From the NCBI RefSeq assembly GCF_014858005.1, contig NZ_JACYOT010000004.1, forward strand, positions 434,001 to 498,000: DNA of 64,000 nucleotides, read 5' to 3'. Position numbers and translations under genes: made by a program. Under the pieces are notes generated by a model. That model saw only the letters and a program-made list of their open reading frames with translations. It searched no databases and had not been told where the DNA came from. This DNA is from Propioniciclava soli. GTDB taxonomy: Bacteria > Actinomycetota > Actinomycetes > Propionibacteriales > Propionibacteriaceae. Shown in pieces: positions 1 to 64,000 of this stretch; position 1 is the first letter of the stretch, and each line of letters begins with the position of its first letter.

Positions 1-100
1 TCCCTGTCGGACGCGTCGCCTCCCTGTCGCACGCGTCGCCTCCCTGTCGCACGCCTCGCCTCCCTGTCGGACGCGTCGCGTCCCTGTCGGACGCGTCGCC
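1..100. repeat. 20-bp tandem repeat array, 5 units (left arm)
   Basis: Five consecutive 20-bp units of consensus TCCCTGTCGGACGCGTCGCC with one or two substitutions each. Read on the minus strand, the unit shares the stretch AGGGAGGCGACG with the units at 176-275, so the two arrays are one repeat family placed head to head. No open frame here looks like a protein. The array may continue beyond the left edge of the window. Confidence 0.9.
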
Positions 101-117
101 GCCCCATCCCAAACCCA

Positions 118-164
118 CGACCCTGCCGCTGCAACGCTGGGGAGGTGGGTTGCGGGCAGGGTCG
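118..164. repeat. Hairpin between the two inverted 20-bp arrays
   Basis: CGACCCTGCC at 118-127 pairs with GGCAGGGTCG at 155-164, with further imperfect pairing inward. It sits at the centre of symmetry of the two flanking arrays. It could act as a terminator for genes entering from either side, but no T tract is present. Confidence 0.6.
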
Positions 165-175
165 CGACGGTGGTG

Positions 176-275
176 GTAGGGAGGCGACGGTACCGGTAGG
201 GAGGCGCGGGCGGCGGCAGGGGAGCGGGGCTACCGGCAGGGTGGCGGGGCTACCGGCAGGGTGGCGGGGATGGGG
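176..275. repeat. 20-bp tandem repeat array, 5 units (right arm)
   Basis: Units start at 176, 196, 216, 236 and 256. The first reads GTAGGGAGGCGACGGTACCG and the later ones drift to GCAGGGTGGCGGGGCTACCG. The later form matches the CAGGGTGGC units at 11713-11905, so the family occurs at two intergenic loci in this window. The exact 20-bp spacing is kept throughout. Confidence 0.9.
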
Positions 276-380
276 GTGACCCATCGGTGGACCCGGCTTG
301 ATCGCAGGAATGGGCGCCGTCGGAGCGGCTCCCACGGCCGGCACCCGTGGACGCCATCCGCCGGGAGGCACCTGCGTCCT

Positions 381-547
381 GTCGACGCCGGACGGTCGGT
401 GGTGTCGAGAACCCATGCACATGCACGCCTTGTCGACGCCTGACGGACCGCGCACGTCGAGAATCCATGCACATGCACGCCTTGTCGACGCTGGACGGCC
501 CGCGCACGTCGAGAACCCATGCACATGCACGCCTCGTCGACGCCGGG
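381..547. repeat. 52-bp tandem repeat, about three copies
   Basis: Copies begin at 381, 432, 484 and 536 (the last partial), each opening with GTCGACGC and containing CCATGCACATGCACGCC. The period is 51-52 bp. Each copy holds the self-complementary TGCACATGCA-like core, so the array can form several small hairpins. It lies just upstream of the yebC promoter. Apparent peptide repeats read from the minus strand are a by-product of the period and are not accepted as coding. Confidence 0.88.
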
Positions 548-618
548 GCGTCAGCAACCGAGACCCTACGGCGCCCGCGCGCCGGACGCCCGCGCGCAGC
601 GGAACGCGCCGAGCGCAC

Positions 619-624
619 TAGAAT
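619..624 (+). promoter_or_regulatory. Probable -10 box of yebC
   Basis: TAGAAT fits the actinobacterial TANNNT -10 element. It would give a start point near 631 and a leader of about 30 bases ending in the GGGAGAAGC Shine-Dalgarno region before the ATG at 661. No clear -35 box is seen. Confidence 0.5.
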
Positions 625-660
625 CGGGAAAGTTGAGAACCCAGAACCAACGGGAGAAGC

Positions 661-1425
661 ATGAGCGGTCACTCCAAGTGGGCCACCACGAAGCACAAGA
701 AGGCGGCGATCGACGCCAAGCGCGGCAAGCTGTTCGCGAACCTCATCAAGAAGATCGAGGTCGCGGCGCGCACCGGTGGTGGTGACCCCGGGGGCAACCC
801 GACGCTGTACGACGCCATCCAGAAGGCGAAGAAGAACTCCGTTCCCAACGACAACATCGATCGCGCCGTCAAGCGCGGTTCGGGCGTCGGCGGCGAGGCG
901 GTCGACTACGTCGAGATCATGTACGAGGCGTACGGCCCCGGGGGCGTCGCGATCCTCATCGAGTGCCTCACCGACAATCGCAACCGCTCGGCGTCCGATG
1001 TGAAGGTCGCGATCACGCGCAACGGCGGCACGCAGGCCGACGTCGGCTCGGTGAGCCGCATCTACGACCGCAAGGGCGTCGTCACGGTCGCCAAGCAGCA
1101 GGCGAAGCCCGTCAGCGAGGATGACCTGCTCGAGGCCACCCTCGAGGCCGAGCCGGAGGACATCGTCGACGGCGGCGAGTCCTTCCAGATCGTCTGCGAC
1201 CCGACCAACCTGGTCGAGGTGCGCAAGGCCGTCCAGGACGCGGGGCTCGACTACGACGCCGCCGAGGTGGAGTTCCGCCCCCAGTACGACCAGGCGGTGT
1301 CGGACGCCGACGGCGCGGCCAAGCTGTTCAAGCTGCTGGACGCCATCGAGGACGTCGACGACGTGCAGAACGTCTACTCCAATGAGGACGTGCCGGAGGA
1401 AATCCTCGAATCCCTCGACGCCTGA
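661..1425 (+). CDS. yebC: YebC/PmpR family protein
   Basis: The 254-residue product has the usual length and opening ([14 protein letters not shown]) of the YebC/PmpR/TACO1 family. Members were first described as DNA-binding transcriptional regulators and more recently as ribosome-associated factors that relieve stalling at proline-rich stretches. The conserved N-terminal basic segment, central alpha/beta domain and acidic C-terminus are all present. The ATG at 661 follows GGGAG at good spacing. The gene heads the Holliday-junction group ruvC-ruvA-ruvB, which is a common actinobacterial order. Membership of the family is clear; which molecular role applies here cannot be told from sequence. 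Confidence 0.96.
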
Positions 1426-1515
1426 GCCTAGGATCCGAACAGACGTTCGGCAGCAGACGGACGGTCGTGCCCCCGGGAGCATCCCGGTGGGTGTGACCTT
1501 CGGCGAAGGGGATTC

Positions 1516-2085
1516 ATGCGCGTTCTGGGGATCGACCCCGGCCTCACCCGGTGCGGCATCGGGGTGATCGAGGGCCAGCCCGGGCGCAAGCCTGCGCTGC
1601 TCCTGGCCGACGTGATCCGCACCCCGGCCGCCATGGAGACCGGTCAGCGGCTCGCCGCCGTCGAACGCTCGCTCGTGCGGTACGTGGCGGAGTACCGCCC
1701 GGACGCCCTCGCCGTCGAGCGGGTCTTCGCGCGCCGGGACGTGAGCTCGATCATCGGGACGGCGCAGGCGTCCGGCGTCGTGCTCCTCGTGGGCACGCGG
1801 GCCGGGCTGGCTGTCGCCCAGCACACGCCGACCGAGGTGAAGGCCGCCATCACCGGCAATGGCCGCGCCGACAAGGCGCAGGTGGGGCAGATGGTCATGC
1901 GGATCCTCGCCCTCGACGCACCCCCCAAGCCGGCAGACGCCGCGGACGCCGTCGCGCTGGCCGTCTGCCACCTGTGGCGCGCGCCCGCCATCGCCCGCAT
2001 CGCCCAGGCGCAGCAGCGCCGCGACCTCGCCGAGGGGCGCGCCCGAGCCCGTGCCCTCGCCGCCGAACGGAGAAAGCCCGCATGA
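1516..2085 (+). CDS. ruvC: Crossover junction endodeoxyribonuclease RuvC
   Basis: RuvC resolves Holliday junctions by symmetric nicking after RuvAB branch migration. The 189-residue product starts with the typical strand carrying the first catalytic aspartate (RVLGIDPGLTRCG). It keeps the glutamate in AVERVF near residue 68 and the C-terminal acidic cluster in PADAADA around residue 140. Its stop overlaps the ruvA start (ATGA), so the two are translationally coupled. A C-terminal Arg/Ala-rich tail of about 20 residues extends beyond the catalytic core. Confidence 0.97.
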   Translation: MRVLGIDPGLTRCGIGVIEGQPGRKPALLLADVIRTPAAMETGQRLAAVERSLVRYVAEYRPDALAVERVFARRDVSSIIGTAQASGVVLLVGTRAGLAVAQHTPTEVKAAITGNGRADKAQVGQMVMRILALDAPPKPADAADAVALAVCHLWRAPAIARIAQAQQRRDLAEGRARARALAAERRKPA

Positions 2086-2690
2086 TCGCCCAGCTGACCG
2101 GCACCGTCGTCTCCGTGGGGGGCACCTGGGTGGTGCTCGATCTCTCCGGTTTCGGCGTGCGCGCCCTGTGCTCCCCGGCGACGGTCGCGTCCGTCCGGGT
2201 GGGGGAGGCGACCACGCTGTACACCTCGCTCATCGTCCGCGAGGACTCCCTCACCCTCTACGGCTTCGCCGAACCCGAGGAGCGGGACGCGTTCGAGCTC
2301 GTGCAGTCGGCGTCCGGGGTCGGACCGAAGATCGCCCAGGCGGTGGTCTCGGTGCTGCCTCCGGGGGAGTTCCGCGCCGCGATCCTTGCTGAGAACGTCG
2401 TGGCGCTCACCAAGGTGCCCGGCATCGGCCCCAAGGGCGCCAAGAAGATGGTCATCGAACTCAAGGACAAGGTCAACGCCCTCGGTGCCACGCCGGACCT
2501 GTCGTCCGGGCCGGTGCCGGCGCCGTCCGAGGTGTGGCGCGAGCAGGTGGCGTCCGGGTTGGAGTCGCTCGGCTGGTCGGCCAAGGACGCCGCCGCCGCG
2601 GTCGAGCGCGTCGCGCCGCTGCAGGAGGAGGACCCGGGCGTCGGCATCGGGGAGCTCATGCGGGCGGCGCTGAAGAGTCTGGCGCGCTGA
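2082..2690 (+). CDS. ruvA: Holliday junction branch migration protein RuvA
   Basis: RuvA binds four-way junctions as a tetramer and loads the RuvB motor. The 202-residue protein begins with the OB-fold domain ([12 protein letters not shown]) and carries the two helix-hairpin-helix motifs around residues 70-125 (SGVGPKIAQ and [10 protein letters not shown]). It ends with the small RuvB-contacting domain (residues 150-202). The ATG at 2082 overlaps the ruvC stop by four bases. An upstream start in the same frame at 1551 would only translate ruvC sequence out of frame and is rejected. Confidence 0.97.
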
Positions 2691-2691
2691 G

Positions 2692-3732
2692 GTGGCCACG
2701 CTGTCGGAGGATCCGCTGGACCCGCACGCCCACCTCGACGACTCCGCCGCCGAGGGTGCGCTGCGGCCCCCCTCGCTGGCCGAGTTCCGCGGCCAGCCAC
2801 GGGTTTCCGAGCAACTCGGCCTCGTGCTGGACGCCGCCCGCGCCCGCGGTCAGGTGCCCGACCACGTGTTGCTGTCCGGCCCGCCCGGGCTGGGCAAGAC
2901 GACGCTGGCCATGATCATCGCCCACGAGCTCGGCCAACCCCTGCGCATCAGCTCGGGCCCGGCGATCCAGCACGCGGGGGACCTCGCCGCGATCCTCAGC
3001 GGGCTGACCGAGGGGGAGGTGTTCTTCCTCGACGAGATCCACCGCATGAGCCGGCCAGCCGAGGAGATGTTGTACCTCGCGATGGAGGACTTCCGCGTCG
3101 ACGTGATCGTCGGCAAGGGCCCGGGCGCCACCGAGATCCCGCTCGAGATCCCGCGGTTCACCCTGGTGGGCGCCACGACGCGCGCCGGTCTGCTGCCCGG
3201 CCCGCTGCGCGACCGTTTCGGCTTCACCGGCCAACTCGACTACTACGAGGCCGGCGCGCTCGTCGGCATCGTCGCGCGCAGCGCAACCCTGCTCCAGGTG
3301 GAGCTCGACACGCCGAGCGCCGAGGTCATCGCATCCCGCAGCCGCGGGACGCCCCGCATCGCGAACCGCCTGCTGCGCCGCGTCCGCGACTATGCGCTCG
3401 TGAAGGCGTCCGGCCGCATCACCCCCGGGGTCGCGGCCGCCGCCCTGGAGCTCTACGAGGTCGACGAACTGGGCCTCGACCGGCTCGACCGCGCGGTGCT
3501 CGACGCAATCTGTGTGCGCTTCGGCGGCGGCCCCGTCGGGCTCTCCACGCTGGCCATGAGCGTGGGGGAGGAGACCGAGACGGTGGAGGAGGTTGCCGAG
3601 CCCTACCTCATCCGGCAGGGGTTCCTCATGCGGACGCCGCGCGGCCGCGTCGCCACCCGGCGGGCCTGGAACCACCTGGGGCTCGCCGTTCCCGCGACGC
3701 ACACGGACCTGTTCAGCACCGGGCAGGAGTAG
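2692..3732 (+). CDS. ruvB: Holliday junction ATP-dependent DNA helicase RuvB
   Basis: RuvB is the AAA+ hexameric motor that drives branch migration with RuvA. The 346-residue product has Walker [10 protein letters not shown] (about residues 64-72), Walker B FLDEIHR (about 115) and sensor 1 GATTR (about 162). The C-terminal winged helix includes [11 protein letters not shown]. The GTG start lies one base after the ruvA stop, so expression depends on reinitiation from ruvA. Length is normal for the family. Confidence 0.97.
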
Positions 3733-3798
3733 AAGGTAGTCTTGCCCGGTGTTCAGCCCCCGGCCGGGGGTGCAGCCGATCGAAAGCTCGAAGGAATC

Positions 3799-4233
3799 AT
3801 GCCTGACCCACAATTGATGTCGACGCTCCTGATGCTCGCGCTGATGGTCGCCGCCTTCTACTTCCTGCTGATCCGCCCCGCGCAGCGCAAGCAGCGCCAG
3901 CAGCAGGAGATGGTGAGCCAGTTGGGCCCGGGCTCGCGCGTCATGACGACGTCGGGCGTCTACGGCACGATCGCGCAGCTCGGTGACCGCCAGGCCGTCA
4001 TCGAGATCGCCCCGGGCGTGGAGATGACCGTGCTGAAGCAGGCCATCATGAAGGCCGTCGACCCGGCCGACGACGAGTTCGTCTACGACGAGGTCGACGC
4101 GGTCGACGCCGACGACGCGGCGCTCACCGACGAGGTGCTCCTCGACGAGACGGTGCAGCCCCTCGACGGGTACGCCGACCCCACGCTGGCCCGCGACGAG
4201 CCGACGACGTACGAGCGCCCCCAACAGCAGTAA
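3799..4233 (+). CDS. yajC: Preprotein translocase subunit YajC
   Basis: YajC is a small membrane partner of the SecDF complex. The 144-residue protein has one N-terminal membrane helix (LLMLALMVAAFYFLLIRPA) followed by the family signature RKQRQQQEM and a soluble beta-rich domain. The acidic C-terminal tail of about 45 residues is longer than in enterobacteria and is typical of actinobacteria. The ATG at 3799 follows GAAGGA. A TTG at 3742 in frame is rejected because its extra residues lack homology. A TAGTCT at 3737-3742 may be the -10 box. Confidence 0.93.
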   Translation: MPDPQLMSTLLMLALMVAAFYFLLIRPAQRKQRQQQEMVSQLGPGSRVMTTSGVYGTIAQLGDRQAVIEIAPGVEMTVLKQAIMKAVDPADDEFVYDEVDAVDADDAALTDEVLLDETVQPLDGYADPTLARDEPTTYERPQQQ

Positions 4234-4270
4234 CCCCTTTCTTCCCCATCGCCTCCGAGGACGTTCACCC

Positions 4271-7703: not shown

Positions 7704-7706
7704 GGC

Positions 7707-11153: not shown

Positions 11154-11154
11154 T

Positions 11155-29921: not shown

Positions 29922-30427
29922 GCACGCTCGCCCTCATCGGCGCGCCCGGCGCGGGCAAGAGCACGGTCGGGCCCCTGCTGGCGGCCCGGCTGGGACTGGA
30001 CTTCGTCGACGTCGACCAGTGGATCGAGGCGGCGCAGGGACGCCGCGTCCGCGACCTGTTCGCCGCCGACGGCGAGGCGGCGTTCCGCGCGATCGAGCGC
30101 GACGCCACCCTCACGCTGCTCGCCCGTCCCGGCGTCGTGAGCCTGGGCGGCGGTGCGCCGCTGACCCCGGCGGTGGCCGAGGCGCTGGCGTCCCACACCG
30201 TGGTGTGGTTGCAGGTGGACGCCCGCCACGCCCTGCAGCGCATCGGCGTCGACGACGGCGGCAGTGAGTTGCGCGCCCCCGTGGGGCTGCGCGGCCGCCT
30301 GATTGCCCTGCTCAACGAGCGGACGCCGGTCTACCGGTCGCTCGCGACCCACACCGTCGACACCTCGGCCCGCACCCCCGACGCCGTGGTGGACGACATC
30401 GTGGCGCTGCTGGGGGTGGCGGCGTGA
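29918..30427 (+). CDS. aroK: Shikimate kinase, lid motif divergent
   Basis: Shikimate kinase phosphorylates shikimate with ATP. The 169-residue protein has Walker [10 protein letters not shown] (residues 8-16), the shikimate-binding Asp in DVDQWIE, Arg57 in AFRAIERD, and GGGA near 78-80. The Arg in NERTPVY corresponds to Arg136 of the M. tuberculosis enzyme. The lid segment, RPLL in the well-studied enzymes, is RAPV here and about three residues shorter. A second complete shikimate kinase, with a standard RPLL lid, is fused to PyrD at 42807. GTG 29918 overlaps the aroC stop. Confidence 0.93.
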
Positions 30428-31500
30428 CGGTCGTCCAGGTCAACGCCGAGCGTCCCTACGACGTGACCGTGGGCCGGGGCATCGTCGCCGGCCTGCCCGC
30501 TGCCCTCGGTGGGGCGACCCGCGTCGCCGTCGTGCACCCGCCCGTGCTGGCCGACGCCGCGCGCCGGCTGACCGCCGACGTTCCGGCGCAGGTCAGCCTG
30601 CTGGAGGTGCCCGCGGGGGAGGACGCCAAGACCGCCGCCGTGCTGGCCGACCTCTGGGGCCGGCTCGCCGAGGCGGGCTTCACCCGGGGCGACGCGATCG
30701 TCGGCTTCGGCGGGGGAGCGACCACCGACCTCGCCGGGTTCGTCGCGTCCAGCTGGCTGCGCGGCGTCCGCTACGTGAGCGTTCCCACGACCCTGCTGGC
30801 CATGGTGGACGCCGCGGTCGGCGGCAAGACCGGCATCAATCTGCCGCACGGCAAGAACCTCGTGGGCGCGTTCTGGGAGCCGGCAGCGGTGTTCTGCGAC
30901 CTCGACTTCTTGGGCACGCTGCCGGCCGATGACCTGCGCGGCGGCCTGGCCGAGATGGTCAAGCACGGCTTCATCGCCGACGAGCGCACCCTGGAGCTCT
31001 TCGAGGCCGACCCGGCGGCGATGCGCGACCCGGCGTCCGACGCGTTGGCCGAGGCCGTGACGCGTTCGATCGCGGTGAAGGCGGCCGTGGTCAGCGGCGA
31101 CCTGCGGGAGGCGACGTCGGTCGGGGGCCGGGTGGGCCGCGAGCTGCTCAACTACGGTCACACCCTCGGCCACGCCATCGAGCGGCGCGAGCACTACCGC
31201 TGGCGCCACGGGTACGCCGTGAGCGTCGGCGTCCGCTACGCCGCGTTGCTCTCGGCGCGGCTGGGCCACGCCGACGACGGCTTCGTCGCCCGGCACACCG
31301 ACATCCTCGCCTCGGTGGGGCTGCCGCTGACCTACGCGCCGGACGCCTTCGCCGAACTGCGCGCCACGATGAACCTCGACAAGAAGACCCGCGGCGCCGC
31401 GCTGCGCTTCGTGCTGTTGGACGCCGTGGCCGCGCCCTTCATCGCCGAGGCGCCGGATGAGCGGGTGCTCGAGGCGGCCTACGCCGACCTCACCGCCTGA
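30424..31500 (+). CDS. aroB: 3-dehydroquinate synthase
   Basis: This NAD- and metal-dependent enzyme turns DAHP into 3-dehydroquinate. The 358-residue protein has GFGGGATTDLAGFVAS near residue 95, PTTLLAMVDAAVGGKTGIN near 122-140, and the metal-site segment ELLNYGHTLGHAIER near 240-255. A further His lies in YRWRHGYAVSVG. All active-site blocks are present. The GTG start overlaps the aroK stop, and the stop overlaps the next ATG by one base. Confidence 0.97.
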   Translation: MTVVQVNAERPYDVTVGRGIVAGLPAALGGATRVAVVHPPVLADAARRLTADVPAQVSLLEVPAGEDAKTAAVLADLWGRLAEAGFTRGDAIVGFGGGATTDLAGFVASSWLRGVRYVSVPTTLLAMVDAAVGGKTGINLPHGKNLVGAFWEPAAVFCDLDFLGTLPADDLRGGLAEMVKHGFIADERTLELFEADPAAMRDPASDALAEAVTRSIAVKAAVVSGDLREATSVGGRVGRELLNYGHTLGHAIERREHYRWRHGYAVSVGVRYAALLSARLGHADDGFVARHTDILASVGLPLTYAPDAFAELRATMNLDKKTRGAALRFVLLDAVAAPFIAEAPDERVLEAAYADLTA

Positions 31501-32177
31501 TGTACACGCCGAAGCACTTCGCGCTCGACGACGCCGGCACCCGCGCCCTGCTCGCCTCCGCCGAGACCGCGGAGCTGGTGACGGCGCACCCGACGGGGCC
31601 GGTGGCCACCCTGCTACCGCTCACGCACCGGCCGGATCCGGACGGGGTGGGGTTCGGCTCGCTGATCTTCCACGTGACCCGGGTGAACCCGGTGTGGCGC
31701 GACGTCGGCCTGGGGGATGCGCTCGCGATCCTGGCGGGACCCCACGGGTACATCGACGCCGACTGGTACGCCTCGAACGCGGCCAGCCCGGGCGTCCCGA
31801 CCTGGAACTACGTGACCGTGCACGCCTACGGGCGGTTGGTGGTGCACGACGACCCCGCGTGGGTGCGCGCGGCGGTGGAGGAGATGTCGGAGCGCTTTGA
31901 TTATGACGCTGGCCGTGTCGAAGCGGGCGCGTTCGAGCGCATGCTGCGGGCCATCGTCGGGCTGGAGCTGCCGATCAGCCGGATCGAGGCCAAGGCGAAG
32001 TTGAACCAGAACCGGACGCCCGCCGACATCGAGGGCGCGGTGGCCGGGCTGCGGACCGTCGGTGGTGCCGAGCTGGCCGCACAGATGGAGGAGATCAGCC
32101 TGCCGCACGCGCGGGCGCGGGAGACCCTCGTGGCCGACGTCCGCGCCCGGCGTGGAGACCCCGGGTGCCCGAGCTAG
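31500..32177 (+). CDS. FMN-binding negative transcriptional regulator, PaiB-like
   Basis: The 225-residue protein matches the PaiB family in order and length: MYTPKHFALDD, the strand ATLLPLTH, then HVTRVNPVWR, PHGYIDADWY and VPTWNYVTVHAYGRL. These are split-barrel flavin-binding proteins. B. subtilis PaiB is reported to affect sporulation and protease genes; here the function is unknown. The ATG overlaps the aroB stop (TGATG), so it is the last gene of the alaS-to-aroB chain. The sequence after its stop marks the start of a region of different composition. Confidence 0.9.
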   Translation: MYTPKHFALDDAGTRALLASAETAELVTAHPTGPVATLLPLTHRPDPDGVGFGSLIFHVTRVNPVWRDVGLGDALAILAGPHGYIDADWYASNAASPGVPTWNYVTVHAYGRLVVHDDPAWVRAAVEEMSERFDYDAGRVEAGAFERMLRAIVGLELPISRIEAKAKLNQNRTPADIEGAVAGLRTVGGAELAAQMEEISLPHARARETLVADVRARRGDPGCPS

Positions 32178-32384
32178 TGCCGCTGACCGGCAGACCGGTT
32201 GACGCCGGCGACAGGTCCCGAAGGTCTCCCTGACCGGGGAGGCGTCGCCACCATCCAGCACAATGTGCACGCATAGACACTCGCTTGTGGGCCGCACTGA
32301 CAACGCGAACACGCGGACGGGCGGCCACCCGCACGCACATTTGCCGCGGGTCGATCGTGCCGGTGGCCGGATGTGCCCTGAGTC

Positions 32385-32422
32385 TTGCAGTTGGACCATG
32401 TGTCGACTAAAATCGACACATG
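32385..32422 (+). promoter_or_regulatory. Promoter and operator of the toxin-antitoxin operon
   Basis: TTGCAG (32385-32390), a 17-base spacer and TAAAAT (32408-32413) form a near-consensus promoter. The expected start point is at or next to the toxin ATG (32420), so the mRNA is leaderless. A perfect 10-bp inverted repeat, CATGTGTCGA / TCGACACATG (32397-32406 and 32413-32422), covers the -10 box and the start codon. It is the likely operator for the antitoxin or the complex. Confidence 0.8.
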
Positions 32423-32731
32423 GTCGAGGTCTACAGCACCGATGACTTCGACAGGTGGCTGCGCAAGCTGAAAGACCGCGAAGGTCGGCTGCGGATCCTG
32501 TCCAGGATCGACCGTCTGACCCACGGCAATCCTGGCGACGTCAAGGGCGTGGGTCGCGGGGTCTGGGAGCTTCGCCTGACCTATGGACCGGGCTATCGGG
32601 TCTACTACGCACAACGCGGCAACCGCGTCGTGCTCCTGCTGTGCGGAGGCGACAAGTCCACGCAGCCGAACGACATCGCCACAGCACAGCGGCTCGCGAC
32701 CGAATGGCACACCAAGGAGGAGGGATCATGA
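32420..32731 (+). CDS. RelE/ParE-fold toxin, HigB (HI1419) type
   Basis: The 103-residue basic protein fits the phage Gp49-like/HigB branch of RelE-type toxins: FDRWLRKLKDREGRLRIL, then GVWELRLTYGPGYRVYYA and LLLCGGDKSTQPNDI. Members are ribosome-dependent mRNA endonucleases or related growth inhibitors. Arg and Lys residues expected at the active site are present, so it looks intact. It precedes the antitoxin gene with a four-base overlap, the inverted toxin-first order usual for higBA. It is encoded in an accessory patch of lower GC. Confidence 0.93.
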   Translation: MVEVYSTDDFDRWLRKLKDREGRLRILSRIDRLTHGNPGDVKGVGRGVWELRLTYGPGYRVYYAQRGNRVVLLLCGGDKSTQPNDIATAQRLATEWHTKEEGS

Positions 32732-33024
32732 CCACCGAGCAGTTCCGCCGCTTCGACCCGGCCGACTACCTGGAGAACATCGAGGACGTCGCCGCATACC
32801 TGCAGATCGCCCTGGAGGACTCGGCCGACGACCCCAGCGCAGTGCCCCGCGCCCTGGGTGTCATCGCCCGCTCGGGCAACATGAGCGAACTGGCCCGCAC
32901 AGTCGGAATGAGCCGTGACGGTCTCTACAAAGCACTGTCCGACAACGGCAACCCCACCTGGTCCACCGTCCTCAAGGTCTGCGAAGCTCTTGGACTCAAG
33001 CTCACCTTCCACGCCGTCGCGTAA
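32728..33024 (+). CDS. HigA-type antitoxin (HI1420-like, HTH)
   Basis: The 98-residue protein matches the HI1420-type addiction-module antidote family. It opens with FDPADYLENIEDVAAYLQIALE and has a helix-turn-helix at about residues 52-85 (NMSELARTVGMSRDGLYKALS and NPTWSTVLKVCEALGL). It should neutralise the preceding toxin and repress the operon through the palindrome at 32397-32422. AGGAGGAGGG lies just before ATG 32728. Confidence 0.93.
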   Translation: MTTEQFRRFDPADYLENIEDVAAYLQIALEDSADDPSAVPRALGVIARSGNMSELARTVGMSRDGLYKALSDNGNPTWSTVLKVCEALGLKLTFHAVA

Positions 33025-33288
33025 CGCCTCAAACTGCCGCGGTGAGGGTGCGCGTCCCCATGGCCCCTGGTGACGATGCCGGAAATGTCGGCTCCTGCTT
33101 CGTCGACAGCCACGCCGTCGTCTCGATCGCTCGGCACGGCTACCACCGGGTCGCCTACCTGATCGCCAGCGGCACGGTCGCGGGCCACGAACGCACACCC
33201 GACTTCGCACGACAAGGAGGCGCACAACCGAAACTGCCGCGCATGGACCCGGTCCTATTGATGGTGGACCGTGCCTGCCGGTGGAGCT
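33025..33288. other. Stretch without a recognised gene
   Basis: Between the antitoxin stop and the HEPN-motif ORF, a plus-strand frame (from 33042) reads SHAVVSIARHGYHRVAYLIAS and similar, but matches no family I know and runs on into the antisense of the next gene. It may be a degraded gene. A GGAGG at 33215 has no suitable start after it. Confidence 0.5.
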
Positions 33289-33954
33289 TCAGGACCGTCT
33301 CTCTTGCGTGCCTGAGGGATCAGGCGCGTTTGGCGCGGATACACGGCTCTCGTCAATTGCTTCGATACACAGCTCCAAGAGGTAGGCACTCAGGGGTACC
33401 GCTGCATCTGCAGTTGCGTCGATATCCTCCCCCTCCAAAGTGATCAGCCCACCCGTGTCGATCTCCATCTGGGCCCAGAAATTCTGGATCTTGCGAAGCA
33501 GGGCTAGGGCCTCAACGTAGAGGTCAAGGTCAGGATTCTTGTCGATGTCGACGAGGTACTTGCCCAGCTCGTGGGTGAGCTCGTGACGATGCGAGTAGAT
33601 GGATTGCAGCCGGTCTGCCTCAGTTGAGGTGATGGCCTCAGCTCTGACGAGCCACGCCACCGATCCGCGGAAGCGGTTCGGTCGTCCGCCCTGAAGCGAC
33701 GGCTCAAGCACGTCGCGTGTGTATGCATCCTCATCGTAGAGCTGCGTGGACCCGTCGAAGCCCCTCCAATAGTACTCACGAACTTTGTCCAAGATCGCTG
33801 ACTTCAGCAACTCATGCGTTAGCTGAAACAAGCCCGCAAAAGCCAGGGTGAACCGCAAGCTCGGAGGGGTCAGCTTCTCGCAAAGTAAGTCGGCGTACTC
33901 TTCTCGTGTTCGGCCCCCATACGGCGCTCTTGGTCGCTGGGCTGCGTCATCCAC
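33289..33954 (-). CDS. Hypothetical protein with HEPN-like Rx4H motif
   Basis: The 221-residue, mostly helical protein is not a family I can name. Residues 121-129 read SHRHELTHE, giving Arg123-x4-His128 with a polar residue after the Arg. This is the RNase signature of HEPN domains, and the hydrophobic helix pattern around it (about residues 34-60 and 95-165) fits a HEPN four-helix bundle. HEPN proteins are common in defence, toxin-antitoxin and abortive-infection loci. Codon use is less GC-biased than in neighbours, which suggests transfer. The GTG start at 33954 is the first in frame and no strong ribosome site is seen. Confidence 0.6.
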   Translation of the reverse strand: MDDAAQRPRAPYGGRTREEYADLLCEKLTPPSLRFTLAFAGLFQLTHELLKSAILDKVREYYWRGFDGSTQLYDEDAYTRDVLEPSLQGGRPNRFRGSVAWLVRAEAITSTEADRLQSIYSHRHELTHELGKYLVDIDKNPDLDLYVEALALLRKIQNFWAQMEIDTGGLITLEGEDIDATADAAVPLSAYLLELCIEAIDESRVSAPNAPDPSGTQERRS

Positions 33955-34280
33955 GCCACCAGCGTAACCGGAGTTTGCGCGTCCTTCGTTCTACCTGCCC
34001 CCGGGAAGCGTCCACTGATACCGCTGCCGTCGCGCTGGACAAGCACTGAGGCCACCGAGTCGAACGTTGTTGGCGCCTCAGAATCCCGGGCCGGAACTCT
34101 TCTTGCAGTACCTCCCGGGGGAAATAGGTGAGGCACGTGCCGACGCCCAGGCCGCGGGCCCCTCGACCAGCCCTGCACGAGATCGCATGTCTCTGGGTCA
34201 GGAGGCGTGGATGGCCGGTGGTAGGGCGCTGAGCTTGCGAGCATGCCGTTGGCGAGGGTGACGTCGTTGGGGTGGTGTGT
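33955..34280. other. Non-coding stretch left of the IS481 remnant
   Basis: No frame here gives a recognisable product. The sequence is of intermediate GC and contains no copies of the host-typical GGACGCC heptamer. It probably represents decayed mobile DNA. Confidence 0.5.
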
Positions 34281-34430
34281 GGCCGGTGGGCCTACGCCCG
34301 CTGCCACCGCAGTGAGCAGGATCGCCGCGACGCCATGCAGGCCTGGCTTCACCAGTACAACCGGCATCGTCCGCACACGACTTGTGGCACGTGGCCGTCC
34401 TCGCCACGATTGATCAACGTTCCCGGTCAG
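34281..34430 (+). pseudogene. IS481-family transposase C-terminal remnant
   Basis: About 50 codons read WAYARCHRSEQDRR, then AWLHQYNRHRPHT and RLINVPGQ. This matches the end of the integrase core and the C-terminus of IS481-type transposases, including the YN-xx-RPH pattern. The N-terminal part with the first two catalytic Asp residues is missing, and no terminal inverted repeats are evident. The fragment marks past insertion-sequence activity at the right edge of the accessory patch. Confidence 0.75.
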
Positions 34431-34549
34431 TCCACCGGGTCGACGTCGTCCCTCAGACCGTCCCCAGAGATCGGCGAAATGGCGTTGCCCTGGTCAAACC
34501 GCCCTAGTCAGGCTGCGTTCGCAGCCCCCCTGGCGCTACGGTTGCCCGC

Positions 34550-35623
34550 ATGATCCTCCTTCGCTGCCCCCGGTGCGACCAGGTGGCCGAACTCGACGAT
34601 CTGATGTGCTGCCAGTGCGGCGCCGAGCTGGGGTTCCACCCGCCGAGCCTCACGATGGTGACGTGCGGCCCCACCGGCACCACGACCGACGACGGCCGCT
34701 GGGTGTGGTGCTCGCAGCGCGACCGGCTGGACTGCAACTGGCTGCGCGACCTGGCGCTCGACACCGAGGAGTGCTTCGCCTGCCATGTCGTGCGCCGGCG
34801 TCCGGAGGCCGACCAGGACTCCGCCTGGGAGAAGCTCGCGCAGGCGTCCAGCCCCAAGCGGCGGCTGCTGGTCCAGCTGGCGGTGCTGGGGTTGCCCGTC
34901 GAGACGTTCCGCGACCAGAAGGGCGGGCTGGCGTTCGACCTGCTGTCGTCGAAGTCCAGCGGCGAGAACGTGACGATCGGGCACTCCAACGGCGTCATCA
35001 CGATCGACCTCGCCGAGAGCCTCGACGACCACCGGGAGAAGCTGCGTGTCCAGCTGGGTGAGCCCTACCGCACGATGCTCGGCCACTTCCGCCATGAGGT
35101 GGGGCACTACTACCAGTGGAAGCTGGTGGAACAGACCGACTTCATCGGCGAGAGCCGCGCGCTGTTCGGTGACGAGCGCGCCTCCTACAGCGACGCGCTC
35201 GACCGGCACTACGCGCAGGGCGCCCCGGAGGACTGGCACGAGTCGTTCATCTCCGAATACGCCACGATGCACCCCTGGGAGGACTTCGCGGAGACGTTCG
35301 CCCACTACCTCCACATCACCGACACGCTGTCGACGGTGGCGCTGGGCGGCGTGGTGCTGCAGGGGGAGCGCTCCGACGGCGTCCTGGAGCGCGACGTCGT
35401 GCCCCGCGTGAGCTACGCGGAGGCGTCCACCGAGGAGATGGTGGACGACTGGCACTGGCTCTCCTTGCTGCTGAACCGGGCCAGCCGCGCCATGGGACGC
35501 CGTGACCTCTACCCGTTCACGCTGCCGGAGCCGGTCGTCCGCAAGCTCGACTTCGTGCACCGGGTGGTGGGCGCGACCGGACGGGTCACGGACCGGCCGA
35601 TCCTGATCGGCGCGGCCGAGTAA
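34550..35623 (+). CDS. Putative zinc-binding metallopeptidase with N-terminal zinc ribbon
   Basis: The 357-residue cytosolic protein starts with a Cys-rich ribbon (RCPRC at 5-9, CCQCG at 20-24) and further Cys at 39, 54, 62, 75 and 78. The C-terminal two thirds resemble the 'putative zinc-binding metallopeptidase' family. The zincin motif HEVGH lies at residues 182-186 and a downstream conserved segment HPWEDFAETFAHYLH at about 243-257 probably supplies the third ligand. The substrate is unknown. ATG 34550 was chosen as the first start. High GC and GGACGCC motifs resume within this gene, so host sequence restarts here. Confidence 0.82.
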   Translation: MILLRCPRCDQVAELDDLMCCQCGAELGFHPPSLTMVTCGPTGTTTDDGRWVWCSQRDRLDCNWLRDLALDTEECFACHVVRRRPEADQDSAWEKLAQASSPKRRLLVQLAVLGLPVETFRDQKGGLAFDLLSSKSSGENVTIGHSNGVITIDLAESLDDHREKLRVQLGEPYRTMLGHFRHEVGHYYQWKLVEQTDFIGESRALFGDERASYSDALDRHYAQGAPEDWHESFISEYATMHPWEDFAETFAHYLHITDTLSTVALGGVVLQGERSDGVLERDVVPRVSYAEASTEEMVDDWHWLSLLLNRASRAMGRRDLYPFTLPEPVVRKLDFVHRVVGATGRVTDRPILIGAAE

Positions 35624-53676: not shown

Positions 53677-53683
53677 GGACGCC

Positions 53684-54637
53684 GTGCGTCTCGTCTTCGC
53701 CGGTACCCCGGCCGTCGCTGTGCCGTCGCTGGCGGCCCTCCTCGCCTCCGAACACGAGGTGGTCGCCGTCGTCACCCGGCCGGACGCCCCCCGCGGCCGG
53801 TCCCGCCGTCCCGTGCCCAGCGACGTCGCGCAATGGGCCGCCGATCAGGGATTGCCCGTGCTCAAGCCCGTGCATCCCAAGGATGCCGACTTCGTCGCCA
53901 CGCTCCGCGACCTCGCGCCGGACGCCTGCCCCGTCGTCGCCTACGGCGCGCTCGTGCCGCAACACGTCCTCGACATCCCGGCCCACGGCTGGATCAACCT
54001 GCACTTCTCCCTGCTGCCCCGCTGGCGGGGCGCGGCCCCCGTGCAACGGGCCATCATGGCCGGCGACACCGTCACCGGTGCCACGACGTTCCGACTCGTG
54101 CGCGAGCTGGACGCCGGCCCCGTCCACCACACCCTCGAGCTTCCGCTGGCCGGCACGGAGACGGCCGGCGACGTGCTCGCCACCCTGGCCGATTCCGGGG
54201 CCCGCCTGCTGCTGCAGACCATCGACGCCCTCGGGGACGCCGAGCCGCGTCCGCAGGAAGACGCCGGCGTCACCGTCGCCCCCAAGCTGAGCGTCGAGGA
54301 GGCAGAGCTTGACTGGCGGCGTCCGGCCATCGATCTCGACCGGCTGATCCGCGGTTGCTCACCCGAGCCGATGGCCTGGACGACCCTGGACGGCCAGCGG
54401 TTCACCGTGGCGCTGGCTCGGCCCGTCGACGTCGGTGATCTCGCGCCGGGGGAGATCCGCGCCGAGAAGCGCCGCGTGCTCGCCGGCACCGGCGCGGGCG
54501 CGCTGGAGCTGCTCCGCGTCCAGCCCCAGGGCCGCAAGGAGATGGCCGGAGCCGACTGGGGCCGCGGCCTGCACGGATCCGGGCGCGGCTTCGACATCGC
54601 ACCCGGTTCAGCGGGCCCGGCAGAAGCGAGGGCCTGA
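53684..54637 (+). CDS. fmt: Methionyl-tRNA formyltransferase
   Basis: Fmt formylates initiator Met-tRNA with 10-formyl-THF. The 317-residue protein has the normal opening RLVFAGTPAVAVPSL, the catalytic NLHFSLLPRWRGAAPVQRAI block near residues 105-125, and a C-terminal OB-fold domain. GTG 53684 is chosen over the GTG at 53675 because it gives the family N-terminus and a leaderless arrangement. The stop overlaps rsmB (TGATG). Confidence 0.96.
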   Translation: MRLVFAGTPAVAVPSLAALLASEHEVVAVVTRPDAPRGRSRRPVPSDVAQWAADQGLPVLKPVHPKDADFVATLRDLAPDACPVVAYGALVPQHVLDIPAHGWINLHFSLLPRWRGAAPVQRAIMAGDTVTGATTFRLVRELDAGPVHHTLELPLAGTETAGDVLATLADSGARLLLQTIDALGDAEPRPQEDAGVTVAPKLSVEEAELDWRRPAIDLDRLIRGCSPEPMAWTTLDGQRFTVALARPVDVGDLAPGEIRAEKRRVLAGTGAGALELLRVQPQGRKEMAGADWGRGLHGSGRGFDIAPGSAGPAEARA

Positions 54638-55977
54638 TGCCGAACCGCACGTTGCGCCGCCGGCGTCCGGACGCCGCGCGCCGGGCCGCGTTCACCGCCC
54701 TCCGCGCAGTGAGCGAGGGCGCCTACGCCAACCTCGAGACCGCCAAGGTGCTGGGGGAGGCGCGCCTGCCGGTTCGCGACGCCGCCTTCGTCACCGAGCT
54801 GGTGTTCGGCACGTGCCGGCTGCAGGGAACCTACGACCGCATCCTCACCGCCGCCTCGGGACGCGACACCTTCGACCCCCCGCTGCGCGACGCCCTGCGC
54901 CTCGGCGCCCACCAGCTGCTCGGCATGCGCGTGCCGAGCCACGCCGCTCTCGCCGCGACGGTCGACCTTGCCGCGGCCGAGGTCGGCGAGCGCGTGGCGG
55001 GCCTGACCAACGCGGTGCTCCGCAAGGTCGCCGCCCGCGACCTGCCGGGGTGGATCGACCACCTCTCCGTGGGCCTCGACCCCCTGGACGCCCTCGCCCT
55101 GCGGACCCACCACCCCCGCTGGATCGTCGACGCCCACGTCGATCTCCTGGGGGAGGAGGCCGAGGCCGCGTTGGCCGCCAACAACGTCACCCCCGTGCCG
55201 CATCTCGTGGTGCGGCCCGGTCTGGCCCGGGTCGACGAACTCGACGGCGAGCCCACCACGTACTCACCCTTCGGCGCCCGCCGCGCCGGCAACCCCGCGG
55301 ACGTCCCCGCCGTTCGCGAGGGCCGCGCCGGCGTCCAGGACGAGGGGAGCCAGTTGGTGGCGTGGGCGCTGGCCCAGGCGGACGCCCCCGCCGGCCCGTG
55401 GCTCGACCTGTGCGCCGGGCCGGGCGGCAAGGCGGCGCTGCTCACCGGCCTCGCCCGCGAGCGCGACGAGCTGCTGCTGGCCGCCGAGCGGCTCCCGCAC
55501 CGCGCCCAGCTCGTCGCCCAGGCGCTGCGCGCCTACCCGGAGCCGAACGTGCCGGTGGTGCTCGCCGCCGACGGCACGCGGCCGGCGTGGCGTCCGGCCA
55601 CCTTCGCCCGGGTGATCGCCGACGTCCCCTGCACCGGGCTCGGAGCGCTGCGCCGGCGCCCGGAGTCGCGGTGGCGGCGCAGCCCCGCCGACCTGGCTGA
55701 TCTCGTTCCGCTGCAACGCGCCCTGCTCGGCTCGGCGCTGGACGCCGCCGCCCCCGGCGGTGTGGTGGCGTACGCGACCTGCTCGCCGCACCGAGCCGAG
55801 ACCAGCGAGGTGGTCGCGGCGGTCACGGCGTCCCGGGAGGACGTGACGATTCTTGACGCCCCCGCCCTGCTGCCCGGTGTCGCCCACACCGCGTCGGGGC
55901 CGTTCGTGCAACTGTGGCCCCACCGGCACGGCACCGATGCGATGTTCCTGGCGATGCTGCGCAAGGACGCGCGCTGA
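54637..55977 (+). CDS. rsmB: 16S rRNA (cytosine-967) methyltransferase RsmB
   Basis: The 446-residue protein has an N-terminal NusB-like helical domain (residues 10-140) and a C-terminal SAM-dependent methyltransferase domain. The latter has the SAM motif DLCAGPGGKAALL near 270, the two conserved cysteines in DVPCTGLG (about 330) and in TCSPHRAET (about 388), and QLWPHRHGTDAMFLA at the end. Fmt-RsmB adjacency is widely conserved. The start overlaps the fmt stop by one base. Confidence 0.95.
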   Translation: MPNRTLRRRRPDAARRAAFTALRAVSEGAYANLETAKVLGEARLPVRDAAFVTELVFGTCRLQGTYDRILTAASGRDTFDPPLRDALRLGAHQLLGMRVPSHAALAATVDLAAAEVGERVAGLTNAVLRKVAARDLPGWIDHLSVGLDPLDALALRTHHPRWIVDAHVDLLGEEAEAALAANNVTPVPHLVVRPGLARVDELDGEPTTYSPFGARRAGNPADVPAVREGRAGVQDEGSQLVAWALAQADAPAGPWLDLCAGPGGKAALLTGLARERDELLLAAERLPHRAQLVAQALRAYPEPNVPVVLAADGTRPAWRPATFARVIADVPCTGLGALRRRPESRWRRSPADLADLVPLQRALLGSALDAAAPGGVVAYATCSPHRAETSEVVAAVTASREDVTILDAPALLPGVAHTASGPFVQLWPHRHGTDAMFLAMLRKDAR

Positions 55978-61283: not shown

Positions 61284-61817
61284 ATGACGAGTGAAGCTGG
61301 GTACCCGTGGTCGTCGTTCACCGTGGACCCTCACGTCCATCCGACAGTCAGGGCCGGTGACATTGATCGAGATGCCGCCGCGCAGATCTTGGCGGCCGCG
61401 TTCGCCGAGGGTCGCCTCGATCACGACGAGTACGATCAGCGACTCACCGCCGTGATGGCAGCCAAGACGGTGGGTGAGTTCTTGCCCCTGCTCGACGACG
61501 TCGCGGTCCTCAGCCACCCGCCTCACCGTTCTCCTCGCCGCAACCTTGGGCTCCGGCCGTCAACTGTCCGAGGGCGTGCCATCGCAGCTTGGGTCGCCGC
61601 GGCGGTGGTCTTCAACGTGCTGTGGACCGCAAGCTGGTTCGGCCAAGGCACACCCACCGCAGTCGAGTACTGGCCACTGTGGGCCATGCTGCTCACTGCA
61701 ATTCCCGCAGCATGGATCGGCACCCAAGGTGGCCAGATCGAATCCGGTCGGTCCCGTCCCACACCCAAGCCGCTCCCAGGGCTGACTTCCAATCACCCGG
61801 GACAAGCAATCCTCTGA
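61284..61817 (+). CDS. DUF1707 and 2TM domain membrane protein
   Basis: The 177-residue protein has a DUF1707 domain at about residues 20-70 (VRAGDIDRDAAAQILAAAFAEGRLDHDEYDQRL), a helical hairpin common at the start of actinobacterial membrane proteins. Two membrane helices follow at about 98-118 and 128-148. A Pro/Ser-rich tail ends the protein. The function is unknown. ATG 61284 follows GGAAGGA. Longer in-frame starts from 61149 add an unrelated head and are rejected. Confidence 0.82.
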   Translation: MTSEAGYPWSSFTVDPHVHPTVRAGDIDRDAAAQILAAAFAEGRLDHDEYDQRLTAVMAAKTVGEFLPLLDDVAVLSHPPHRSPRRNLGLRPSTVRGRAIAAWVAAAVVFNVLWTASWFGQGTPTAVEYWPLWAMLLTAIPAAWIGTQGGQIESGRSRPTPKPLPGLTSNHPGQAIL

Positions 61818-61850
61818 AGCCGTACGGGTTGGGCCGTGGCCCGTGGCTTC
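61816..61850. terminator. Stem-loop between convergent DUF1707 and PAC2 genes
   Basis: GAAGCC at 61816-61821 pairs with GGCTTC at 61845-61850, and GGGCC-GT-GGCCC lies inside. It overlaps the DUF1707 stop and lies 40 bases from the PAC2 stop, so it can act in both directions. Confidence 0.55.
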
Positions 61851-61889
61851 TCTCGGTGGCCGAACGTCCGGGGGCGTCCCCGTGACGGC

Positions 61890-62684
61890 TCAGCGTTCCC
61901 GACGCCGCAGGTAGCGCTCGAACTGCAGCGCGATCTCGTCGCCGGTGGCCTCGGCGGTGTCGTAGCGCTCCTCGAGATCGGTGACGTACTCGGCGATGTC
62001 CGGGTCCTCGGCCACGAGCTCGTTGACCCGGCCCTCCCAGACCGTCGCGTGCTCGGGCAGGTCGCCCAGCTCGATCGTCTGGTCGATGAGGTCCTCGACC
62101 CGGCTGAGCAGCGCGACGGTGGCCTTCGGGTTCGGCGGGTCGGAGACGTAGTGTGGCACGGACGCCCACAGCGACGTCACGTCGAACCCGGCGTCGCGGC
62201 AGGCGCTCGCGAAGATGCCGACGATGCCGGTGGGCCCCTCGTAGTCGGTGCCGTTCTCCGAGACCGGCGTGGGACGCGAGTGGGGGGCGTCCGCCAGCAT
62301 GGCCCCCATCGCGATCACGCGCTCGGGGTTGACCGAGCGCACCAGCGACACCAACGAGGAGCAGAACGCCTTCCACCGGAAGTTTGGCTCGGGCCCGTTG
62401 ATCAGCACGAGGTCGCGCTCCTCCAGGTGCACGACGAGCACCTCGGTGGTCGCCCACTGCAGGGTGCGCTCGCCGCTCTCGTCGCGGACGAGCACGGGCC
62501 GGGTCTCGGTGAAGTCGTAGTGGTCCTCCGGGTCGAGCGCGAACGCCAGCTCGGTGTCGCCCAGGCCCGACAGGTGGTCGACGGCACCGGTCGCAGCGTC
62601 GCCGGCGTCGTTCCAGCCGCTGAAGGCGGCGAGCACCACGGGGCGGCGGAGGTGTCGGAGGTCAACCGGAACCATGCGCGCCAC
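61890..62684 (-). CDS. PAC2 family protein
   Basis: The 264-residue protein matches the actinobacterial PAC2 family, related to proteasome assembly chaperone 2. It has PVVLAAFSGWNDAGDAATGAVDHL, then DFTETRPVL, and GPEPNFRWKAFC. PTGIVGIFASACRDAGF follows near residue 150, then DLEERYDTAEATGDEIALQFERYLRRRE. The C-terminal part is helical and charged. Its precise function in bacteria is not established. A second Met three residues in (62675) is an equally good start. It is divergent from metH. Confidence 0.9.
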   Translation of the reverse strand: MARMVPVDLRHLRRPVVLAAFSGWNDAGDAATGAVDHLSGLGDTELAFALDPEDHYDFTETRPVLVRDESGERTLQWATTEVLVVHLEERDLVLINGPEPNFRWKAFCSSLVSLVRSVNPERVIAMGAMLADAPHSRPTPVSENGTDYEGPTGIVGIFASACRDAGFDVTSLWASVPHYVSDPPNPKATVALLSRVEDLIDQTIELGDLPEHATVWEGRVNELVAEDPDIAEYVTDLEERYDTAEATGDEIALQFERYLRRRER

Positions 62685-62719
62685 TCTATCGCCGGTGCCC
62701 AGCGCACGGCCGGATCGCC

Positions 62720-62725
62720 TATCCT
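62720..62725 (+). promoter_or_regulatory. -10 box, leaderless start of metH
   Basis: TATCCT ends six bases before GTG 62732. No riboswitch-like fold was seen in the short gap to the divergent PAC2 gene. Confidence 0.55.
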
Positions 62726-62731
62726 TGCCCG

Positions 62732-64000
62732 GTGACCCAGCCGCTGCGTGAAGCCCTCTCGAGCCGTGTCGTCGTGGCCGACGGGGGCATGGGCACGATG
62801 CTGCAGGGCCACGACCTCTCCCTGGACGACTTCGCCGGGCTGGAGGGCTGCAACGAGATCCTCAACGTGACGCGCCCCGACGTGGTTGAGGCGATCCACA
62901 CCGCCTACCTCGACGCCGGCGCCGATTTCGTCACCGCCAACACGTTCGGCACCAACCTGTCCGCGCTGGGGGAGTACGACATCGTCGACCGGCTGGCCGA
63001 GCTTGCCGAGGCCGGCGCGGCCATCGCGAAGCGGGCGGCGGACGCGGCGTCCACCCCCGAGCGGACGCGCTGGGCCGTCGGCTCAGTCGGGCCGGGCACG
63101 AAGCTGCCCAGCTTGGGGCACATCGGGTTCGCGGCGCTCCGGGACGCCTACCAGCGCCAGGTCGAGGCCATGCTGGCCGGCGGCATCGACGGCGTCCAGA
63201 TCGAGACGTGCCAAGACCTGTTGCAGGCCAAGGCCGCCGTCCAGGGCGCCCGCCGGGCCCAGCGCGCGGTGGGGCGCGAGATTCCGGTGATGGTGAATGT
63301 CAGCGTCGAGACCAACGGCACCATGCTGCTCGGCTCCGAGATCGGCGCGGCGCTCACGGCGCTGGAGCCGCTCGGCATCGACGTGATCGGCCTCAACTGC
63401 TCCACCGGCCCCGCCGAGATGAGCGAACACCTGCGCCACCTCGCCCGCTTCGCCCGCACCGGCGTGGGCTGCATGCCGAATGCCGGTCTGCCCGAGCTGA
63501 CCGCCGACGGCGCGGTTTACCCGCTGGGCCCGGAGGGATTCACCACGGCCCTCACCGACTACGTGGACGCGTTCGGTCTCAGCGTGGTCGGCGGCTGCTG
63601 CGGCACGACGCCGGAGCACATCCGCCAGCTGGTGGCCTCCGTGGGCGGGCGTCCGCTCACCCGGAAGGCGGACGCCGCCGCGCGCCCGGCCGGGGGCAAC
63701 GTCGCGTCGCTGTACGCCGACGTGCCGCTGCGGCAGGACACGAGCTACCTCAGCGTCGGCGAGCGCACCAACGCGAACGGGTCGAAGGCGTTCCGCGAGG
63801 CCATGCTCGCCGAGGACTGGAACGCCTGCCTCGACATCGCCAAGGGCCAGTCCCGCGAGGGTGCCCACCTGCTCGACCTGTGCGTCGACTACGTCGGCCG
63901 CGATGGCGTCGCCGACATGCGTGAGCTCGCGTCCCGGGTGAACACGGCCGTCCCGCTGCCGGTCGTGCTCGACTCCACCGAGCCGCCCGTCATCGAGGCC
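62732..64000 (+). CDS. metH: Cobalamin-dependent methionine synthase, 5' part
   Basis: MetH transfers a methyl group from 5-methyl-THF through cobalamin to homocysteine. The 423 codons visible run open to the window edge. They cover the homocysteine-binding barrel, with ADGGMGTMLQGHDL near residue 17, GADFVTANTFGTN near 70, and the zinc ligands in GLNCSTGP and VGGCCGTTPEH. The start of the folate-binding barrel follows (SVGERTNANGSKAF onward). The cobalamin and reactivation domains lie beyond the window. GTG 62732 gives TQPLREALSSRVVVADGG, a normal opening. Confidence 0.95.
   Translation, partial: MTQPLREALSSRVVVADGGMGTMLQGHDLSLDDFAGLEGCNEILNVTRPDVVEAIHTAYLDAGADFVTANTFGTNLSALGEYDIVDRLAELAEAGAAIAKRAADAASTPERTRWAVGSVGPGTKLPSLGHIGFAALRDAYQRQVEAMLAGGIDGVQIETCQDLLQAKAAVQGARRAQRAVGREIPVMVNVSVETNGTMLLGSEIGAALTALEPLGIDVIGLNCSTGPAEMSEHLRHLARFARTGVGCMPNAGLPELTADGAVYPLGPEGFTTALTDYVDAFGLSVVGGCCGTTPEHIRQLVASVGGRPLTRKADAAARPAGGNVASLYADVPLRQDTSYLSVGERTNANGSKAFREAMLAEDWNACLDIAKGQSREGAHLLDLCVDYVGRDGVADMRELASRVNTAVPLPVVLDSTEPPVIEA

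Follow-up and report, generated by a model that had tools for sequence, protein, structure and literature searches.

Why should one seven-base word be repeated thousands of times along a bacterial chromosome, inside genes as well as between them? The question is raised by a 64,000-bp stretch of Propioniciclava soli DNA (assembly GCF_014858005.1, contig NZ_JACYOT010000004.1, positions 434,001 to 498,000; this whole stretch is called the window below), in which an earlier note had picked out GGACGCC and its complement GGCGTCC as strongly over-represented. Our counts confirm this. The window holds 226 copies spread throughout positions 1..64000 (121 on the + strand, 105 on the - strand), or one per 283 bp; 207 lie within genes called by a simple codon-usage script and 19 outside them. 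Base composition alone predicts 38 copies and an order-2 Markov model 36.4; in the order-3 check that the note had suggested for the genome, run here on the window, the expectation is 56.6, and no other 7-mer has as high a z score. Two of the three hand counts reported earlier are exact, namely 11 copies at 29941..31500 (seven GGACGCC, four GGCGTCC) and seven at 2101..3700 (four and three), whereas the third stretch, 53677..54640, has six (five and one) instead of five. The excess of about 10-fold over chance claimed from them is real in direction but smaller in size, 3-fold over shuffled genes, because these three stretches (24 copies in about 4.1 kb) are richer than the window (3.5 per kb) or the genome (2.7 per kb).

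A null model preserving amino acids, codon usage and dinucleotides, which the note had itself named as the test of its claim, fails to reproduce the abundance of the word. The 207 copies in window genes compare with 68.9 +/- 6.9 in 200 shuffles (maximum 89), a 3-fold excess with a z of 20, and all six classes of frame and orientation are enriched, from 2.2-fold to 12-fold. Moreover, the enrichment extends to the rest of the genome (3,795,546 bp in 65 contigs), which contains 5,203 + 5,166 = 10,369 copies of the word against 811 + 774 = 1,585 of the reversed word, a control of equal composition. In 12 stretches of this genome (284 kb including the window), 728 copies are found against 278.6 after shuffling. 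Here and below, genome-wide counts cover whole genomes, and codon-aware tests use between about 24 kb and 420 kb of each genome. Densities within and outside genes are 2.98 and 1.65 copies per kb in genome G000, 2.58 and 1.04 in G001, and 5.34 and 4.90 in G003.

The word is a property of the genus. All 13 Propioniciclava genomes (genus g1) are enriched over the reversed word, from 3.5-fold in G011 to 11.7-fold in G003, which carries 13,828 copies in 3.0 Mb. The codon- and dinucleotide-preserving shuffle gives 889 observed against 240.6 in genes of G003 (3.7-fold) and 159 against 77.6 in G011, the weakest genome of the genus so tested. The word does not rank first everywhere: it is fourth in one 20-kb stretch of G005 (50 against 23.4) and is not the top word of a 22-kb locus of P. 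flava (30 against 11.6). Across the phylum, three of 296 evenly sampled genomes reach 3-fold and 293 remain below; the three are the P. soli genome itself (6.5) and two members of one genus (5.5 and 5.2) in which the control word is itself rare.

Within the 197 genomes of the family Propionibacteriaceae, two related words divide the genera. GGACGCC is at least 3-fold enriched in all 13 genomes of g1, 3/3 of g31, 4/6 of g17 and 1/5 of g4; GGTACGCC passes the same threshold in 2/2 genomes of g5, 1/1 of g10, 5/5 of g14, 9/20 of g18 and none of the 13 of g1. One or other of the two words also passes in a few genomes belonging to g9, g21 and g28. In G016, from another genus of the family, GGACGCC is not in excess (0.71 of the codon- and dinucleotide-preserving shuffle), while GGTACGCC occurs 134 times in sampled genes against 14.7 after shuffling (9-fold) and 3,442 times in the genome against 132 for its reversed control (26-fold). 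Codon-aware tests on samples of about 60 kb revealed further variants: GTACGCC preceded by C or G in G103 (92 against 12.0), palindromic CGTACG in G057 (g28; L126-L128; 101 against 30.7) and, more weakly, CGACGTC in G062 (g4; L132-L134; 90 against 44.7), whose palindromic form is CGACGTCG. Since palindromic CGTACG and the weaker CGACGTCG are enriched in these last two genomes, one word family comprises both asymmetric and palindromic forms. All of the words found have ACG in common, and GGACGCC differs from GTACGCC by a single base within a common 7-base frame; such related words in different genera of one family are thus dialects, as in the uptake sequences of Neisseriaceae. In g6, g13, g20, g33 and g34, words are weak or absent in 60-kb samples, which may miss modest ones. 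The GGACGCC/GGTACGCC dialects are a new finding of this work. The literature searched (titles and abstract openings, with subscription journals mostly outside the search) yielded no report of GGACGCC, nor of any uptake word in Actinomycetota. A separate observation concerns G027 (g16; L005, L068, L069), where a family of 10-mers around GACAGGCTCA/TGAGCCTGTC is present at 15 copies per 60 kb against 0.1 expected. This is probably a dispersed repeat, a kind of element unlike the coding word.

The word is nearly exact and is strong enough to distort codon choice. Words that differ from it by one base sum to 0.90-0.93 of expectation, and the last base is the main place where a mismatch is tolerated (GGACGCA, 1.87-fold in G003; GGTACGCA, 6.4-fold in G016). 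The lowest well-counted of these neighbours is GGACCCC (0.35 in G000 and 0.42 in G003), a transversion. Mutation of the Vsr type from a single precursor was considered as a source of the word and rejected, as no transition precursor is emptied. In the G016 sample, 129 of the 223 GTA codons lie inside GGTACGC; GGACGCC/GGCGTCC contains 92 of 442 GGA codons in G001 and 270 of 1,078 TCC codons in G003. The word therefore overrides codon preference, the rare GTA and GGA codons being concentrated within it. This concentration, together with the shuffles and the genome counts, supports the original proposal of an iterated genome word that goes beyond codon preference.

We then considered orientation and position. 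With the origin of G001 placed at dnaA (the start of that genome) and the terminus taken as opposite, 21 stretches contain 478 leading-strand and 470 lagging-strand copies, so that the strand skew around origin and terminus which the note had proposed to look for was not seen there. Words of chromosome architecture such as KOPS (FtsK-orienting polar sequences) and AIMS (architecture-imparting sequences) are strongly skewed towards the terminus. A polarised word of the Chi, KOPS or AIMS type was accordingly rejected for G001. In G016, whose origin was not located, GGTACGC is divided 152 to 154 between the strands. Neighbouring copies on the same and on opposite strands number 411/372 in G000, 449/478 in G001, 488/555 in G003 and 116/179 in G016, with no significant same-strand excess. 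Even spacing and helical phasing were not found in the genus: the variance-to-mean ratio in the window is 0.76 in 1-kb bins (P 0.08) and 0.43 in twelve 5-kb bins (P 0.056), and the word positions of G000 and G003 are over-dispersed. In G016 (L004, L060-L065, L165-L168), adjacent GGTACGC copies favour opposite orientation (179 vs 116, p 0.0003) and, at 0.5 to 1 kb, are spaced a little more evenly than Poisson. This is one exploratory result of many tests; four comparison words gave p 0.017 to 0.23, and nothing is built upon it.

Few individual sites are common to different species. In 11 relatives, the orthologous position also carries the word in 0.11-0.39 of cases, against 0.10-0.24 for pooled words of the same composition, and 61 to 89% of word sites are not kept; these figures refer to gap-free sites, counted in those window genes (4 to 32 of 54) for which a partner was found. 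Examples are 37/135 kept in G009 (vs 0.22), 44/112 in G002 (vs 0.24) and 30/100 in G003 (vs 0.16). The ratio of retention to that of same-composition words is 1.05-2.4 in ten relatives and 0.6 in G010 (18 sites). Density rather than position is maintained, and there may be some additional site retention. Within the word, the loss of synonymous third bases is 0.84 times as frequent as in the same codons elsewhere, which gives it rank 12 among the 121 words of equal composition that have 150 codons or more. This test is a weak one, gain and loss being inseparable because synonymous sites are near saturation at these species distances.

Stretches poor in the word are of several kinds. The first 16.8 kb of L019 in G001 (1-16800) contain 7 copies, compared with 2.26 per kb in the sample, and correspond to a mobile element with two TrwC relaxases, a DDE transposase, a transporter of the major facilitator superfamily and a gene of the rRNA adenine dimethylase family. 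In G016, L166 has 6 GGTACGC copies in 20 kb against a mean of about 28; its positions 1-19300 encode a 1,872-aa open reading frame (ORF), a DUF1702 protein and two halogenase-like proteins, and look like a biosynthetic gene cluster. A phage origin of L166 was rejected, as no clear phage genes were seen among nine proteins. The word-free gaps of L021 and L024 (G001) contain rRNA operons, not foreign DNA, and those of L014 and L018 in the same genome carry ordinary-looking HD-domain, FAD-type and glycosyltransferase genes. Among the long gaps whose genes were examined (L014, L018, L019, L027, L056), only L019 is clearly mobile. In the window itself, the longest interval without the word is 32021..34796 (about 2.8 kb), with a G+C content of 0.65 against 0.715 for the window.

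What, then, is the word for? Its ACG-core dialects, its lack of polarity, its asymmetry, its loose positions and its scarcity in two stretches that look acquired, L019 and L166, together give it the closest resemblance to uptake sequences. The explanation that we consider best, with a probability of roughly 0.42, is that GGACGCC is a self-recognition word read in DNA uptake. Among the roles suggested earlier, an uptake signal fits best with the absence of polarity, the non-palindromic form, the genus dialects with a common core and the presence of competence genes; uptake as the step concerned, the identity of the reader protein and a barrier to gene exchange are what we infer. GGACGCC would then be the Propioniciclava dialect of a family-wide, fast-evolving word whose general form is approximately G[G/T]ACGCC. 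A sequence-specific reader, most likely part of an uptake machine made of a Flp/Tad pilus and ComEA/ComEC, would favour word-bearing DNA during transfer between cells of one species. Fragments with the word would enter cells and recombine more often, and copies would build up on both strands, wherever coding permits, in DNA that recombines among relatives. Drive through biased uptake and recombination accounts for density without fixed position (PMC1939737). A change of reader might in turn entail a genome-wide shift to a new dialect and narrow gene exchange to kin.

The machinery that such a process would use is encoded in these genomes. P. soli has a comEA-comEC operon and two tad clusters in the order ATPase, T2SSF-type proteins, Flp-sized ORF and TadE, the Flp and TadZ assignments being made from position and length only. 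ComEC was detected in 189 of the 197 family genomes. For PilT as an uptake motor, nothing scored above the cut-off in 20 family genomes; it was tad clusters that were found instead. Such clusters are present in Micrococcus luteus, also an actinobacterium, whose transformation is reported to depend on Flp-pilus biogenesis (PMC4322843).

Several observations nevertheless weigh against a role in uptake. The available text of the M. luteus work mentions no uptake word (PMC4322843), and no uptake experiment in Propionibacteriaceae was found in the titles and abstract openings searched. ComEC does not predict the word, because it is near-universal even in genera without a strong one; conversely, G012 (100% complete, 330 contigs) is word-rich and G168 has GGTACGCC, yet neither gave a ComEC match, possibly owing to assembly gaps. 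The 4,888 to 13,828 copies per genome of the genus exceed the 2,245 and 3,269 reported for DNA uptake sequences (DUS; PMC3630211), and no ComP-like pilin receptor was identified. RecC is as universal as ComEC (189/197), which leaves room for a reader acting in recombination. Retention above that of same-composition words (10 of 11 relatives, 1.05-2.4 times) would also be expected from selection on sites, the word is not evenly spaced in the genus, and word-poor stretches are not all mobile, as L014 and L018 of G001 illustrate.

A recombination reader would make the words Chi-like signals, scanned by the RecC subunit of RecBCD, and the dialects would follow changes in the RecC recognition tunnel. 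Chi itself attenuates the nuclease of RecBCD and stimulates recombination. This reading, the main rival to uptake, appears unlikely on balance. RecC recognises Chi as a short sequence that core genes contain in excess (PMC8022716), and RecC (PF04257) is present in 189 of the 197 family genomes, E. coli being the only one of 14 named controls to have it. The genera with consistent GGTACGCC (g5, g10, g14 and g18) have RecC E-values of 2.3e-51 or better, and g1, g17, g31 and the weaker g9 of 3.4e-42 or worse, a correlation that is confounded with phylogeny. However, four g21 genomes (G120, G152, G168, G184) and one of g28 (G094) reach at least 3-fold for GGTACGCC despite RecC E-values of 3e-21 to 2e-32, and g6, g19 and g29 have high-scoring RecC without GGTACGCC. 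The density of the word is 8 to 23 times that of E. coli Chi (one per 5 kb), and there is neither polarity (478/470 in G001) nor a significant same-strand excess of neighbours. The polarity is not decisive, because non-polarised candidate Chi motifs have been reported in Vibrio (PMC8022716). Both of these leading readings, uptake and Chi-like, give the word a part in the exchange or recombination of DNA. As an observation in its own right, RecC scores over the 197 genomes fall into a high group (g2, g3, g5, g6, g10, g14, g18, g19, g29) and a low group (g1, g9, g17, g31 and others); the consistent-GGTACGCC genera belong to the former and the single GGTACGCC-bearing genomes of g21 and g28 to the latter.

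The remaining explanations place the word outside gene exchange. It might resemble HIP1, the cyanobacterial word cited as an analogue in the earlier note, and be made or kept by a DNA methyltransferase together with methylation-directed mismatch repair. HIP1 occurs about once per kb, is replaced by alternate words in some cyanobacteria and favours deviations at its ends (PMC4390886), as the last base is tolerant here, and palindromic dialects do exist (CGTACG in G057 and, weakly, CGACGTCG in G062). But the main words, GGACGCC and GGTACGCC, are not palindromic, and MutS, which the published model requires, was found in none of 33 genomes including that of P. soli (11 of 14 controls were positive; MutL was not searched for). 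PF00145 is unmatched in G016 and in five of the 13 genus genomes, all word-rich (G002, G007, G008, G010 and G012, of which G007 and G010 are incomplete), and PF01555 is unmatched in G011, whose enrichment is the lowest, with heterogeneous matches in the 12 others. A methyltransferase as common cause is thus unsupported for these two families, others not having been searched for. In addition, a single repair bias would have emptied a transition precursor, and none is emptied; the lowest of the well-counted neighbours, GGACCCC, is a transversion. Of the analogy with HIP1 only the same order of density holds, and a mechanism of this kind seems quite improbable. A still slimmer chance attaches to the idea that a nucleoid protein, or some other factor shaping the chromosome inside the cell, binds the word: copies are indeed found genome-wide, on both strands and in genic and intergenic DNA, but the genus lacks clear even spacing or helical phasing, positional conservation is low and the dialects change between genera. 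Finally, composition, codon preference or context-dependent mutation alone could hardly suffice. A G+C content of 71% lifts the background, as the order-3 expectation of 56.6 in the window reflects, but shuffles that keep codons and dinucleotides are exceeded 3-fold in the window, 3.7-fold in G003 and 9-fold in G016 for its own word; rare GGA and GTA codons cluster in the word; the excess belongs to one exact 7-mer, most of its neighbours being close to 1 or lower; and 293 of 296 phylum genomes stay under 3-fold. Codon-aware nulls largely refute this explanation.

Two side observations concern proteins encoded in the window. One ORF at 42807-44465, 3' of a large carbamoyl-phosphate synthase gene, combines a shikimate-kinase domain (residues 11-161) with a dihydroorotate dehydrogenase domain (254-548), a fusion that looks unusual in its arrangement. 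At 49086-51053 lies a PriA-like protein of 655 aa that matches Pfam only at the PriA 3'-DNA-binding domain and has no helicase-domain match; it is 69% identical to its counterpart in P. flava, 72% to that in P. sinopodophylli and 76% to that in a Propioniciclava metagenome-assembled genome.

It is tempting to suggest, at somewhat under even odds, that each lineage of Propionibacteriaceae stamps its genome with its own ACG-core dialect, that a protein of the Flp/Tad pilus or of RecBCD reads it, and that dialect switches mark borders of gene exchange, which would make these the first 'mate-recognition' words of Gram-positive bacteria. If so, the rewriting would be strong enough to shape the use of rare codons, including more than half of the sampled GTA codons of G016. 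Uptake words that come in several versions are on record from two families of proteobacteria (PMC3630211, PMC1939737); what HIP1 does was an open question in PMC4390886. An asymmetric word with a density like that of HIP1 or higher and DUS-like dialects, in a Gram-positive family with comEA/comEC, tad and RecC and no MutS, separates hypotheses that are hard to part elsewhere. The dialects are natural test material for distinguishing passwords of gene exchange from recombination signals and from by-products of repair.

Among known systems, the DUS of Neisseriaceae, read by ComP, is likewise a short, exact, non-palindromic and over-represented word with lineage versions built around three fixed bases, which are CTG in each of the eight DUS dialects (PMC3630211) and ACG here. 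It differs in its length (10 bases there, 7 to 8 here) and in its fewer copies, and the present words, whose role in uptake is putative, occur in Gram-positive bacteria that have tad clusters and, in 20 genomes of the family, no PilT above the cut-off. The uptake signal sequence of Pasteurellaceae shares the lack of orientation bias and the existence of two versions within one family; mismatched forms are over-represented there (PMC1939737), whereas one-off forms are slightly depleted here (0.90-0.93) save at the last base. HIP1 of cyanobacteria is also G+C-rich, has alternate words and is of similar density (about one per kb, against 1.6 to 4.6 here), but is palindromic and tied to orphan methyltransferases and MutS-type repair (PMC4390886); the Propioniciclava word is asymmetric, in genomes with no MutS and no common PF00145 or PF01555 methyltransferase. 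Chi (GCTGGTGG; PMC8022716) is again a short over-represented word, and its reader RecC is near-universal in Propionibacteriaceae, whereas the Propioniciclava word is unrelated in sequence, unpolarised and 8 to 23 times denser than Chi in E. coli.

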